A DNA stretch of 64,000 nucleotides from an uncultured SAR86 cluster bacterium (lineage in GTDB: Bacteria; Pseudomonadota; Gammaproteobacteria; Magnimaribacterales; Magnimaribacteraceae), in the NCBI GenBank assembly GCA_902618945.1, contig CACNCK010000002.1:62001-126000 (forward strand). Direction: 5' to 3'. Below, one piece after another: positions 20,640 to 60,877 of this stretch. Within the stretch, counting starts at the first letter, position 1, and every line of letters begins with the position of its first letter. The notes beneath the pieces were generated by a model. That model was not told where the DNA came from. It saw only the letters and a list, made by a program, of their open reading frames with translations, and did not search any database. The translations under genes were made by a program, and so were the position numbers.

Positions 20640-21995
20640 ATGACTCAATCTATAGTCGAAAGATTAACATTAAAGACAAGGATAGGCTACGGAATAGGAG
20701 ATATAGCAATTTGTTTATACTGGAGTGGGGTAGGCTTATATCTTCTATATTTTTATACAGATGTTGTTGGTATCTCCGGATCCTTAGCAGGGTTGATTTA
20801 TTTTATTGGTATGGCTTGGGATGCCGCCACTGACCCATTCATGGGTTATATCGCTGAAAGAACAAGAACAAAATGGGGTGTTTATCGTCCATATTTATTG
20901 TTTGGCAATATTCCTTTGGCTTTGTCATTTGTTTTATTATTTTGGGTTCCACCTCTGGAAGGTTCTTCACTATTCTTTTTTCTTTTATTTGCAAATTTAC
21001 TGCACAGGACTTGCTTTACATTAGTAAGCGTTCCATTTTCATCTCTCACTCCAAGGATAACTTCTGACAGTCAAGAAAGGACTAATTTGACTGGCTTTAG
21101 AATGCTAGGAGCCCAAACTGGAACAAACCTAATGGCCCTTTTAGCTTTTCCAATTATTTTTTGGGTTGGAGGAGAGGATGAAAGTATGGGGTTTATAGTT
21201 TTAGCTTCTATAGCTGGAATAACTGCCATACTCATACATTCAATAACTTTTATAACAGTAAAAGAACCTGAGAGTGATCAGGGTATAGAGAGAGTTGGTG
21301 GAAGTCTTGCTGATGCAGCAATGGCAATTGGAAAGAATAAACCCTTTTGGCTGGTTTTTTCTGCAACTTTAATTGTAGGAATTACAACTATATTTTTTGG
21401 AAATAATTTAATTTATTACACGAAATATGCTCTGGATCTGCATGAACACCAAGGAGTGATTCTATTTACTAGTGGCATTGTAGCGTTTTTAAGTATACCA
21501 ATTTGGTGGATCATCTCTAACAGATTAGGTAAGAAAATTACATGGTTAATCTCAAGCGCAATAACCCTGTCTTCATTAATATTATTTTATTTTTATGATA
21601 TCAAGACACTAAATGAATTACTTTTTTTAGTCGCGTTTATTGGTTTTGGCAGTGGTGCAGGAGGGATTTTATTTTGGTCTATGCTTCCTGATACTATTGA
21701 ATATGGTGAAGTACATACTGGGGTTAGAAGTGAGTCATCATTGTATGGATTTATGACGTTTGCTCAAAAAGGGTCTATAGCATTAGCAGTATTAATCTTA
21801 GGCTGGGTTTTAGATGCAATTGGGTATCAGGCAAATCAAGTTATGTCTGCAGCTACAGTTGATAATATGAAAACTATAATGACTTTGATACCTATATTAT
21901 GTATTTCATGTAGTTTAATAATAATTTATTTCTACCCTATAGACTCAAAAATGCATAAGGATCTATTGAGACAACTTCAAAAGGAAACAATATGA
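20640..21995 (+). CDS. MFS transporter, GPH (glycoside-pentoside-hexuronide) cation symporter type
   Basis: 12-TM MelB-like protein; YGIGDIAICLYWSGVG, WDAATDPFMGYIAERTRTKWGVYRPYLLFG. Confidence 0.88.
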   Translation: MTQSIVERLTLKTRIGYGIGDIAICLYWSGVGLYLLYFYTDVVGISGSLAGLIYFIGMAWDAATDPFMGYIAERTRTKWGVYRPYLLFGNIPLALSFVLLFWVPPLEGSSLFFFLLFANLLHRTCFTLVSVPFSSLTPRITSDSQERTNLTGFRMLGAQTGTNLMALLAFPIIFWVGGEDESMGFIVLASIAGITAILIHSITFITVKEPESDQGIERVGGSLADAAMAIGKNKPFWLVFSATLIVGITTIFFGNNLIYYTKYALDLHEHQGVILFTSGIVAFLSIPIWWIISNRLGKKITWLISSAITLSSLILFYFYDIKTLNELLFLVAFIGFGSGAGGILFWSMLPDTIEYGEVHTGVRSESSLYGFMTFAQKGSIALAVLILGWVLDAIGYQANQVMSAATVDNMKTIMTLIPILCISCSLIIIYFYPIDSKMHKDLLRQLQKETI

Positions 21996-24001
21996 AAATA
22001 ATTAAATGGGGAATATTAGGTACTGGTTCAATAGCAAAAGCGTTTGCAGATGCTTTAAAAGAAACTGAAGGTGAATTAGTTGCTGTAGCCAGTAGCACTG
22101 AACAAAGGGCAAAAGAATTTTGTGCACCTTATGGTTGCAAACCAATTGGAGGTCATCACAATTTAATTTCAATGCCAGAAATTGATGCGATTTATGTAGC
22201 AACACCTCACACAAGTCACTTTGAACTCACAGCCCAATGCCTAAAAAATAAAAAAGCAGTTCTTTGTGAGAAGCCTATGACTATTAATGCGACCGAAACA
22301 ATGGCTCTTATAGATCTATCCAGAAAAAATAATACACTTCTGATGGAAGCATTTATGTACAAAATACACCCGCAAACCAAAAAAATAATGGAGATTATTC
22401 AACAGAAGTTGAATGCTCCATTAGATATAAGTGCTGAATTTTGCTTTTCAGTTGATGTCCCAGAAACTCATCGACTGGTTAACCGTGAATTAGGTGGCGG
22501 ATCTATTTTGGATATTGGATGTTATCCAGTTTCCATATCACGACATGCTGTAGGAGCTGCAAATGGTAAGAACTTTCTAAATCCAATATCAATCGAAGGA
22601 AAGGGAGAGTTAAATTCTCAAGAAATAGATCTAAATGCTTCAGCAATTTTAACGTTTGAAGATAAATCAGTAGCTAGAATAAAGTCAGCTACCAATCTAA
22701 GCTCAGAGAGTGATGTAAGAATTACAGATGGCACCAATACTATCTTAGTAAATCAACCTTGGCATTGTGGAGAGTTTACAGACAGAAAATCTCAATTAAA
22801 AATAATAGATAAAGAAGGTAATGAAGAGGAGATTGATATTTCAACTGATAAAGGAATTTATGCATTAGAAATAGATCATTTTTCAGAAACTTTTCATACC
22901 CAAGCTACAGAATCGTCGCTTATTCCACATAATGATTCTCATGGCAATATGATCGCTCTGGATACTTGGAGAAAAGATTTAAGAGTCGTTTATGATGAAG
23001 ATAGGGGGGAAAGAAGAAAGTTTCCCGTCATTTCTAACAAAATTCCAAGAGAAATACTGCCAACTCTAAAGATTCCAGGAATTGATAAAGAATTGTCTCG
23101 TTTAGTATTCGGTTGCGATAATCAATCCGATACTAATCATGCATTTGCAATGTTTGATCATTTTTACATGAAAGGAGGAAATGTTTTCGATACAGCCTAT
23201 ATTTACAATAATGGAAAGAGTGATTATTACTTGGGAAGTTGGATTGAATCTAGGAATTTGAGAGAAGAAGTTGTAATTCTTGGAAAAGGGGCACATACAC
23301 CCGATTGCGAACCAGACAAAATTAGGCCGCAATTAGAGGAAACTTTAAATAGAATGTCCTCTGAATATCTGGATATCTATTGCTTACATAGAGATAACGA
23401 GTCTTTACCAGTTGAAGGTTTTATCGATACTTTAAATGATCTCAAAGAAGAAGGACTGATAAAGGTTTTCGGTGCTTCGAATTGGTCATTAAAAAGATTT
23501 AAACAAGCGAATAACTATGCTTTATCCAATGGAAAGGAGCCCTTTACAGTTTTGAGTAATAATTTCAGTCTTGCACGCATGAACAATCCTGTTTGGCCAG
23601 GATGTTACAGCTGTTCTAATGATGATTATGTCGAATATCTTACCGATAGTCAGGTTGCTATCTTTCCTTGGTCTAGTCAAGCCAGAGGTTTTTTTCTAGA
23701 CTCTCAAGAATTTTCTGGATTAAGACATGTTGCTGATCCAAACAGAGAAGAGCAAGAAAGGGTATGGGGAAGCAAAGAAAACAAAGAAAGACGAAAGAGA
23801 TGTTTTGAGTTAGCTTCCAAAAAGTCAGTTGCTCCAATCCAATTGGCTTTATCATTTGTGCTTAACCAAAAGTTTCCATCTTTTCCATTGATAGGTCCTA
23901 GAAACTTTTTTGAAACTGAAAGTTCATTAGAAGCTATAAAAATTGATTTAACTGCTGATGAAATCTCTTGGCTTAATCTAAATTCTCAAACTATAAAATA
24001 A
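21992..24001 (+). CDS. fusion protein: N-terminal Gfo/Idh/MocA oxidoreductase + C-terminal aldo/keto reductase
   Basis: N-half: WGILGTGSIAKAFADAL, VLCEKPM. C-half from about aa 350: VFDTAYIYNNGKSDYYLG, LDIYCLHRDN, VFGASNWS, single uninterrupted 669-aa frame. Confidence 0.9.
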   Translation: MKIIKWGILGTGSIAKAFADALKETEGELVAVASSTEQRAKEFCAPYGCKPIGGHHNLISMPEIDAIYVATPHTSHFELTAQCLKNKKAVLCEKPMTINATETMALIDLSRKNNTLLMEAFMYKIHPQTKKIMEIIQQKLNAPLDISAEFCFSVDVPETHRLVNRELGGGSILDIGCYPVSISRHAVGAANGKNFLNPISIEGKGELNSQEIDLNASAILTFEDKSVARIKSATNLSSESDVRITDGTNTILVNQPWHCGEFTDRKSQLKIIDKEGNEEEIDISTDKGIYALEIDHFSETFHTQATESSLIPHNDSHGNMIALDTWRKDLRVVYDEDRGERRKFPVISNKIPREILPTLKIPGIDKELSRLVFGCDNQSDTNHAFAMFDHFYMKGGNVFDTAYIYNNGKSDYYLGSWIESRNLREEVVILGKGAHTPDCEPDKIRPQLEETLNRMSSEYLDIYCLHRDNESLPVEGFIDTLNDLKEEGLIKVFGASNWSLKRFKQANNYALSNGKEPFTVLSNNFSLARMNNPVWPGCYSCSNDDYVEYLTDSQVAIFPWSSQARGFFLDSQEFSGLRHVADPNREEQERVWGSKENKERRKRCFELASKKSVAPIQLALSFVLNQKFPSFPLIGPRNFFETESSLEAIKIDLTADEISWLNLNSQTIK

Positions 24002-24039
24002 TTCTTTTATAAAAATAAATTTATTGATATTCTTGCTTT

Positions 24040-24261
24040 AGGCGTCCCACATTCAATTTAACACGAGGGGAATTGAATTTGTGGATCTTTATTACCCTCT
24101 ACAGGAGGTGATCACTATTAGTATTTATTTTAGAAGAGGAACAACAGGAGTATCCTTCTGACACGGGTTACCCCGGTTCCGGCTAACAGTTTTAACAGTT
24201 AGTTGAAAAGTAGTTGAGATACGCTTTTCGGAATCCCCGCCCTAGGGTGGGGATTTTTTTT
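24040..24261 (+). ncRNA. candidate structured small RNA or 3'UTR-derived RNA of unknown class
   Basis: No ORF of 60 aa or more on either strand. Contains GAGGG/CCCTC, CTAAC/GTTAG and GAAAAG/CTTTTC inverted repeats, an AGGAGGTGATC segment, and ends in a 12-bp GC-rich terminator with T run. 5' end is a guess. Confidence 0.5.
24232..24261 (+). terminator. strong intrinsic terminator
   Basis: AATCCCCGCCCTAGGGTGGGGATTTTTTTT: near-perfect self-complementary stem with one G-T pair followed by T run. Confidence 0.9.
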
Positions 24262-24658
24262 ACTTTCTAGCACCCTCGCTATCGAAAACTCTTAGATAAA
24301 TGAGCTGCTCGAGTTTGGATGTATTTTTAACTTTTACGTAGTCACCTTCTTCAGCTAAGATGATATTCCCTGCAGTTATAGTCAACTCAGCTTTGTGTTC
24401 AATACCAAAACTAGGATTTGTTCCATGACCGGCTTCGTGATTTGCATACTCAACGACTTCCATTTCACCAACACCAGATAGAAATACATAAACAACTTCC
24501 GATTCAATCAGCCTATGTCCACCAGTAGATCCATTTGGATCAATAATTGTTTTACTCGCAACAAGTTTCTCTAAAATAGTGTTCGTGTAAACTTTGTAAG
24601 TATTTTCACTTCTCCAAAGATTTTCTCCGACCTGGAAGTTTTCGTATTTTTTTGCCAT
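24260..24658 (-). CDS. cupin-domain protein
   Basis: 132 aa, small beta-rich protein with GGHRLIESEVVYVFLSGVGEMEV and ITAGNIILAEEGDYVKVKN cupin-like blocks. Confidence 0.7.
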   Translation of the reverse strand: MAKKYENFQVGENLWRSENTYKVYTNTILEKLVASKTIIDPNGSTGGHRLIESEVVYVFLSGVGEMEVVEYANHEAGHGTNPSFGIEHKAELTITAGNIILAEEGDYVKVKNTSKLEQLIYLRVFDSEGARK

Positions 24659-54160: not shown

Positions 54161-54328
54161 ATGTTAGTACTAAGCAGGAAAGCTGAAGAATCAATGTACA
54201 TTGGCGATGATATTAAAATTACGGTTTTAGATATCAGAGGAGGGCAAGTCAGGATAGGCATTACGGCACCTCAAGATGTCAAAATTCATCGAGAAGAAGT
54301 ATACAATCGTATCTCAAGTAAAGATTAG
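54161..54328 (+). CDS. csrA: carbon storage regulator CsrA
   Basis: Own translation: [65 protein letters not shown]. Omitted from ORF track because it is 55 aa. Confidence 0.97.
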
Positions 54329-60109: not shown

Positions 60110-60202
60110 AATTTATCCCTTTTTTGTTTATTGTTTACTATTAATCTAAATAATATAACTCTAACAAGAATTAAAAAAATATCACTACCTACTTTAACTT
60201 TT

Positions 60203-60877
60203 TTACATGATTTGATTCCAAAGTTGCAATTCCTCAATTCTAAGGTAACTATTAATCTTCTTCACTTCCTGTAGAGTTGCAGATTCTTTGGGACCATAAT
60301 TGTGTCCAGGATAGATGATTGTTTCATCAGGAAGTTTAGAAAGTTTACGGAGACTATGGAACATATCTTCAGAGTTTGCACCAGGTAAATCAACCCTCCC
60401 ACATCCTTGAACAAATAGGGTATCTCCTGAGATAAGACTATTATTTACTTTGAAGCACTGAGACCCAGGTGTATGTCCTGGAGTATGAATAAACTCTATA
60501 TCATTATCTCCAATCTTAAAGTGATCTCCTGAATCTACTATATTCATATCTATGTTAGATAAACCAGTAACTTTTTTGAGACCATCGACCTCGTGTTTAT
60601 TGACAAAAGTTTTTACAGGTTCTTTTTCTAATACTTCAGCAAGGCCCTCAATTGAGTGTCCTCCCATACTTCCACCTACATGATCTGGGTGACAATGAGT
60701 TACCAAAACACACGAAAGTTTTAGATCTCTTGCTTGAATATGGTTGAGTAAACCTTCAACATCCCAAGCAGGATCAATTAAAGCCACTTCTCGAGTTTTT
60801 TTGGAACCTAACAAATAAATAAAGTTTTCCATTGGACCTATAAGTATTTGCTCAATATATAAATCATCATTAATCAT
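60203..60877 (-). CDS. MBL-fold metallo-hydrolase (glyoxalase II-like)
   Basis: THCHPDHVGG, HTPGHTPGSQCF, SGDTLFVQGCGRVD, YPGHNYG; ATG at 60877 has GAGGAAAG SD. Confidence 0.93.
   Translation of the reverse strand: MINDDLYIEQILIGPMENFIYLLGSKKTREVALIDPAWDVEGLLNHIQARDLKLSCVLVTHCHPDHVGGSMGGHSIEGLAEVLEKEPVKTFVNKHEVDGLKKVTGLSNIDMNIVDSGDHFKIGDNDIEFIHTPGHTPGSQCFKVNNSLISGDTLFVQGCGRVDLPGANSEDMFHSLRKLSKLPDETIIYPGHNYGPKESATLQEVKKINSYLRIEELQLWNQIM

Follow-up and report, generated by a model that had tools for sequence, protein, structure and literature searches.

The stretch from 24040 to 24261 on the + strand of the window, which is the whole 64,000-nucleotide piece of DNA from an uncultured SAR86 cluster bacterium analysed here, is by comparative evidence a free-standing RNA gene of SAR86, a marine order, and constitutes a new RNA family, whose expression is untested. 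Judged from the alignments, the invariant core of this RNA is an extended Shine-Dalgarno (SD) sequence together with a mini-ORF and not a hairpin; the pattern suggests that the RNA may work on or through the ribosome. SAR86 bacteria are abundant, mostly uncultured inhabitants of the ocean with small genomes, and for an RNA retained in single copy throughout the order an important role is probable. It allows the idea that an RNA can employ the ribosome as its sensor or partner to be tested sharply, and the new covariance model is usable for marine metatranscriptomes.

Extent, fold and distribution of the RNA

The putative features of the RNA, in window positions, are the following:

24028 to 24033, +: -10-like box TATTCT, 7 nt upstream of the conserved 5' end (no transcript data)
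24040 to 24261, +: whole RNA, from the conserved AGGCGTC through the terminator T run, based on homologues and alignments
24044 to 24046, +: 5' GTC, tentatively paired over a long range with GAC 24160-24162 as a second pseudoknot
24047 to 24084, +: P1 hairpin, CCACATTCAATT / AATTGAAT..GTGG, loop AACACGAGGGG; two-sided changes in 10 of 12 pairs
24065 to 24069, +: pseudoknot 5' strand GAGGG, within the P1 loop; 96% paired
24095 to 24099, +: pseudoknot 3' strand CCCTC, from pair counts in the alignment
24103 to 24113, +: extended SD AGGAGGTGATC, able to pair with the organism's own 16S tail GATCACCTCCT over 11 contiguous positions
24117 to 24161, +: mini-ORF, ATT to TGA, 14 codons (ISIYFRRGTTGVSF), non-AUG start, fixed stop at codon 15
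24138 to 24142, +: stem A 5' strand GGAAC, closing a three-way junction with GTTCC 24176-24180; 100% paired, CG/UA/AU covariation
24145 to 24160, +: hairpin B, CAGGAG / CTTCTG; 96.7% paired, little variation
24164 to 24175, +: hairpin C, CGGGT / ACCCCG, from fold and alignment
24176 to 24180, +: stem A 3' strand GTTCC, from pair counts in the alignment
24182 to 24203, +: hairpin D, GCTAAC / GTTAG; two-sided changes in 4 of 6 pairs, 100% paired
24205 to 24229, +: hairpin E, GAAAAG / CTTTTC, conserved internal loop AGTTGAGATAC; two-sided changes in 8 of 9 pairs
24230 to 24261, +: intrinsic terminator, 12 pairs and a T run; likewise placed in all four families

From its 5' end the RNA comprises a hairpin whose loop takes part in a pseudoknot, then a three-way junction, two further hairpins and the terminator. 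For the + strand of 24036-24262 the folding energy is -74.9 kcal/mol, compared with a mean of -54.9 for dinucleotide shuffles (z -4.18, with 1 shuffle in 200 as low); the fold of the - strand of the same interval was not better than shuffles (z -1.42). To count pairs we used a MAFFT alignment (A1) that had not been fitted to the structure, and on it 93.3% of the pairs of the proposed structure are standard. Changes on both sides of a pair were found in 104 cells versus 26 in shuffles, none of 500 reaching 104, and versus 11-24 when the strands were slid. The predicted fold is supported by covariation. The variable pair of the GAGGG/CCCTC pseudoknot appears as GC, AU, GU, UG or CG. The putative second pseudoknot, GTC/GAC, remains tentative; three of its pairs are nearly invariant, and the fourth (TA/AT/CG) shows some compensatory change and is mismatched in the window's own genus.

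The sequence-only reading had placed a candidate structured RNA at 24040-24261, which agrees with the transcript deduced here (no transcript data being available), and all the inverted repeats that it named are present: GAGGG 24065-24069/CCCTC 24095-24099, CTAAC(AGTT) 24183-24187/(AAC)AGTTAG to 24202 and GAAAAG 24205-24210/CTTTTC 24224-24229. The terminator was also found as described, and it is one of four terminator-like sites within the kilobase, versus 0.6 expected. As for the repeats being hairpins, GAGGG and CCCTC do pair, but they form the pseudoknot between the P1 loop and a downstream strand instead of a hairpin. The description of the spacer as GC-rich was overstated, its G+C of 36-42% being only mildly raised over the approximately 36% found nearby.

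Homologues were identified by blastn among 61 related genomes in the window's own family, and the core was also present in two further families; their alignment gives an RNA of about 220 nt whose 3' end is the terminator. Using a covariance model of the 146-position core (R1), the RNA was detected in 123 of 176 SAR86 genomes, including 36 of the 40 good genomes, and in 20 of 21 genera, as a single copy per genome save for one weak second match in one SAR86 genome. The weak second matches (G144:C6, L083; G000:C2:122171, that is window 60171-60282) were judged to be due to chance; in the search of a 369-genome sample drawn from the class, the extra match of R1 in the window's own genome had an E value of 0.08. 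No match to R1 was found outside the order among these 369 genomes. When 264 Gb of named genomes were scanned for the pattern, 109 stretches were returned, and almost all of them carry SAR86 or Gammaproteobacteria in their titles. Blastn against phage records gave no match to the RNA, and no paper on it was found in the open literature.

The structured-RNA reading is therefore borne out by sequence and structure kept across the whole order, with no Rfam family; a lack of conservation in relatives, which would have refuted it, was excluded by the alignment of homologues. With Rfam 15 no match reached the gathering score, and relaxing the cutoff to E 10 brought up nothing but weak matches, the better ones resting on the terminator (the best has 24.1 bits against a threshold of 55 and rests largely on it). 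It had been stated beforehand that the RNA was not recognisable as 6S, tmRNA, SRP RNA or RNase P, and indeed none of these Rfam models matched 23990-24300 at E up to 10. 6S RNA (RF00013) resembles the SAR86 RNA in being free-standing, about 200 nt long and order-wide, but its fold is unlike; the genome's own 6S lies elsewhere (G000:C1:53113-53290) and no 6S match occurs here to E 10.

The extended Shine-Dalgarno and the mini-ORF

The most conserved unpaired stretch reads GGAGGTG[AG]TC, 2-4 nt, AT[TC]A[GA]TATT. Because the organism's own 16S gene ends GGCTGGATCACCTCCTTA (the 16S tail was read in locus L216), AGGAGGTGATC can form 11 contiguous pairs with it. GGAGGTGRTC is found in 63 of 63 aligned loci and, as an exact match, only once in the window, at the extended SD; the A/G alternation at one SD position pairs with U either way. 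The spacing from AGGAGG to ATT/ATC is 7-9 nt, and the start is always AUU or AUC, with AUG at that codon in no copy. The criterion for an extended-SD/non-AUG site (an SD of at least 10 pairs and a conserved AUU/AUC/AUA at 7-9 nt) is met, and initiation by the ribosome is inferred from it. The GTG inside the SD was considered as a start and rejected, as it lies in a different frame in many copies and leaves no room for an SD of its own. Accessibility of the SD is unproven: single-sequence folds often pair it, leaving it 5-44% unpaired, or 8-56% with the pseudoknot strand blocked, and in such thermodynamic folds it has no common pairing partner.

Conserved AUU/AUA starts paired with extended SD motifs are known from S. 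aureus, where in poor medium expression from them is about 10% of that from AUG (PMC13009471). The genes infC and S. aureus cvfC1 and ccpN share with the SAR86 RNA the long SD-antiSD pairing and a conserved AUU/AUA-type start, with low, IF3-sensitive initiation (PMC13009471); they are, however, protein genes, whereas the SAR86 RNA has a 14-codon ORF within a folded, terminated RNA gene and a peptide free to vary.

The spacer had been described as lacking a long ORF, which is correct, but the 14-codon ORF from ATT 24117 to TGA 24161 had been overlooked, as had the extended SD and the pseudoknot. The frame of this ORF is open for 14 codons and then closed by TGA at codon 15 in all 109 pattern loci and in all 63 aligned loci, which are overlapping sets. 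Among 73 distinct SAR86 ORFs none has an in-frame internal stop, versus 52 and 73 for the other two frames, although part of the other-frame stops is forced by the conserved motif itself. When 12 well separated linkers were shuffled, the probability of finding no stop was about 0.005. It should be noted that the SAR86 UGA overlaps the proposed GAC pairing, which alone could keep it.

Concerning the peptide, we counted 34 synonymous single changes in the SAR86 ORF versus 27.8 expected, and 47, 47 and 51 changes at codon positions 1, 2 and 3. Since the synonymous count is not clearly above expectation and the three positions change at equal rates, the peptide sequence of the SAR86 mini-ORF is by these counts not conserved, with no selection on it inferred; a conserved peptide in SAR86, considered as a candidate, finds no support in the codon statistics, which lack a clear synonymous excess.

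A homologue in a second lineage

One of the 109 pattern matches, L114, comes from a metagenome-assembled genome (MAG) of 3.6 Mb deposited as SAR86 cluster bacterium NORP90. It retains the 5' hairpin, the pseudoknot, the SD and the ORF; the local 3' sequence is not retained. RNAs of the L114 type are present in 31 of 59 relatives and in 12 of 394 genomes of L114's order, the latter searched with a model (R2) built from the second lineage only, without SAR86 sequences besides L114 from its MAG labelled SAR86. In the 369-genome class sample the sole match of R2 was the SAR86 RNA of genome G035, in the correct place (E 8e-5). The consensus fold of R2 has the same layout of hairpin, SD-AUC, stem A, hairpins B and C and terminator, and its stem A, GGGAGC/GCTCCC, lies about 21 nt past the start and is homologous to SAR86 GGAAC/GTTCC. 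As far as models and predicted folds can establish it, the second lineage carries a homologue of the SAR86 RNA with a shared fold.

The 28 distinct second-lineage sequences start with ATC (24) or ATT (4), and their first in-frame stop falls at codon 15 in 22 and at codons 14-16 in 26, with TAA, TAG and TGA all used, while in frame +1 the first stop is scattered from codon 6 to codon 37. The stop lies inside a helix, a structural setting that differs from that of SAR86. This stop-codon pattern outside SAR86 is the best evidence for a real mini-ORF, inferred as it is from sequences alone, and translation is untested. ORF residues 1-10, INSQSIKGAS, are well kept outside SAR86. In L219-L238 the sequence GCCTCC occupies codons 9-10 of the mini-ORF, and its CCTCC could pair with the SD (as in the R2 consensus) or with a downstream GGAG; on these modelled pairings an SD-sequestering switch is possible in the second lineage. 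The copy L225 (genome G858), whose pseudoknot (AGGGG / CACACTG) and SD (GGAGGTGACC) are both altered and whose frame has no stop at codon 15, is possibly decaying.

Gene neighbourhood and mode of action

In the window the gene before the RNA fuses a Gfo/Idh/MocA oxidoreductase to an aldo/keto reductase, and the gene after it is cupin-like and convergent. The fusion gene (21992-24001, +; PF01408 and PF00248) adjoins the RNA throughout most of family f1, and the cupin-like gene (24260-24658, -; 132 aa), whose product has no Pfam match, is likewise retained in most of f1. In f3 the RNA comes after a gene resembling a symporter, with an SDR-like gene converging on it; its neighbours in the second lineage are a PilZ-like or small conserved gene and, convergently, a helicase-like one (the names symporter, SDR, PilZ and helicase were read from sequence by eye, without a search). 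At nearly all f2 and f4 loci read, an EamA transporter gene has its ATG right after the end of the terminator; at L026, L077, L094, L097 and others this ATG almost abuts the terminator, with no visible SD, and leaderless or read-through expression of the f2/f4 EamA gene is suggested. The RNA appears to have no fixed partner gene and is therefore likelier to act in trans than in cis. Between the two origins proposed earlier, a free sRNA is favoured over a 3'UTR product because the neighbouring genes vary among families, because the -10-like box, which has counterparts at the equivalent position elsewhere in the order (e.g. TATATAAT in family f2), closely precedes the conserved 5' end, and because the upstream gene of the second lineage can point the opposite way; discrete transcription is unproven.

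Our best explanation, for which we claim not quite an even chance, is a free-standing RNA in which the SD and the AUU/AUC ORF make up a translation-state-dependent regulator, with 30S docking, initiation and transit all inferred. The 30S subunit would dock via the long SD, and initiation at AUU/AUC would be weak and checked by IF3. A short ribosome transit would follow and open stem A and hairpin B, which begin about 21 nt past the start, so that the 3' domain would have its conformation and activity determined by ribosome occupancy. The RNA would then regulate according to the translation state, in trans in most lineages, the peptide itself not being selected in SAR86. That ribosome binding or transit matters, rather than the peptide, seems most likely, although there are no ribosome data. 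Only tentatively, and as something rather unlikely, do we propose a new RNA class with a near-maximal SD and a poor start between two rigid folds, where IF3 or free-30S levels would set entry into the ORF and switch the 3' domain. We know of no counterpart to a long SD, an obligatory AUU/AUC and a 14-codon ORF of fixed length and freely varying sequence in a conserved fold.

An mRNA mimic that only holds the 30S subunit, for storage, for sequestration or as an IF3/30S sensor, without productive translation, would fit the extended SD and poor start codon as well as the stretch of about 40 nt without conserved pairing between the pseudoknot and stem A, which comes close to the 30S mRNA channel in size. 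That the frame stays open and its stop is retained nevertheless indicates elongation, and a trap needs no stop codon, making this reading unlikely, if the least so of the alternatives. Somewhat more doubtful is a dual-function small RNA whose product is the 14-residue peptide, made at low level from AUU/AUC. SgrS and RNAIII are dual-function sRNAs of this kind, free-standing and with a small ORF as in the SAR86 RNA, and the fixed ORF length and the well kept INSQSIKGAS outside SAR86 would agree with it; but in SAR86 there is no clear synonymous excess and the rates at the three codon positions are equal, the start is never AUG, and the residues kept outside SAR86 fall where the RNA sequence and its helices are themselves retained. 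Differently from SgrS and RNAIII, moreover, the peptide is not conserved in SAR86 and the ORF is central in a conserved fold.

The position of the terminator before the EamA ATG in f2 and f4 raises the question of a cis-acting leader or attenuator of that gene, and the trp and phe leaders also have a short ORF in a structured RNA, then a terminator. The SAR86 RNA differs from them in lacking a downstream regulated gene in the window and most lineages and a diagnostic codon run, and in its non-AUG start. A same-strand gene lies directly downstream only in f2/f4, the next gene being convergent in the window, f3 and the second lineage, and mostly convergent or unrelated in f1; an EamA homologue is present elsewhere in the f1 genomes and most f3 genomes tested, yet the RNA is single copy. 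Such an attenuator cannot explain the window copy and is very improbable as a general account. An ordinary base-pairing sRNA or 3'UTR-derived RNA, with the SD-like stretch as a seed for a C-rich target, is given a still smaller chance: the terminator, the single copy and the free-standing position or one 3' of a gene are compatible with it, but the conserved unpaired stretch is the complement of the 16S tail at start-codon spacing, and the ORF pattern would be left unexplained.

The preferred reading of a ribosome-dependent regulator was also weighed against sequestration of CsrA/RsmA. CsrB, RsmY and RsmZ resemble the SAR86 RNA in their GGA motifs (here ACAGGAGG, GAGGAAC and ACAGGAG), free-standing position and terminator, and CsrA is encoded in the window's own genome, in f1 and in f3. 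No f2 or f4 genome that was searched yielded CsrA, a clean lineage-specific absence, and since these families keep the RNA with the same motifs, sequestration is disfavoured; conservation also reaches far beyond GGA, in one extended core and not in repeated GGA hairpins, so that we regard this as the least probable of the readings. The csrA gene itself lies in the window at 54161-54316 (+; PF02599, E 1e-26).
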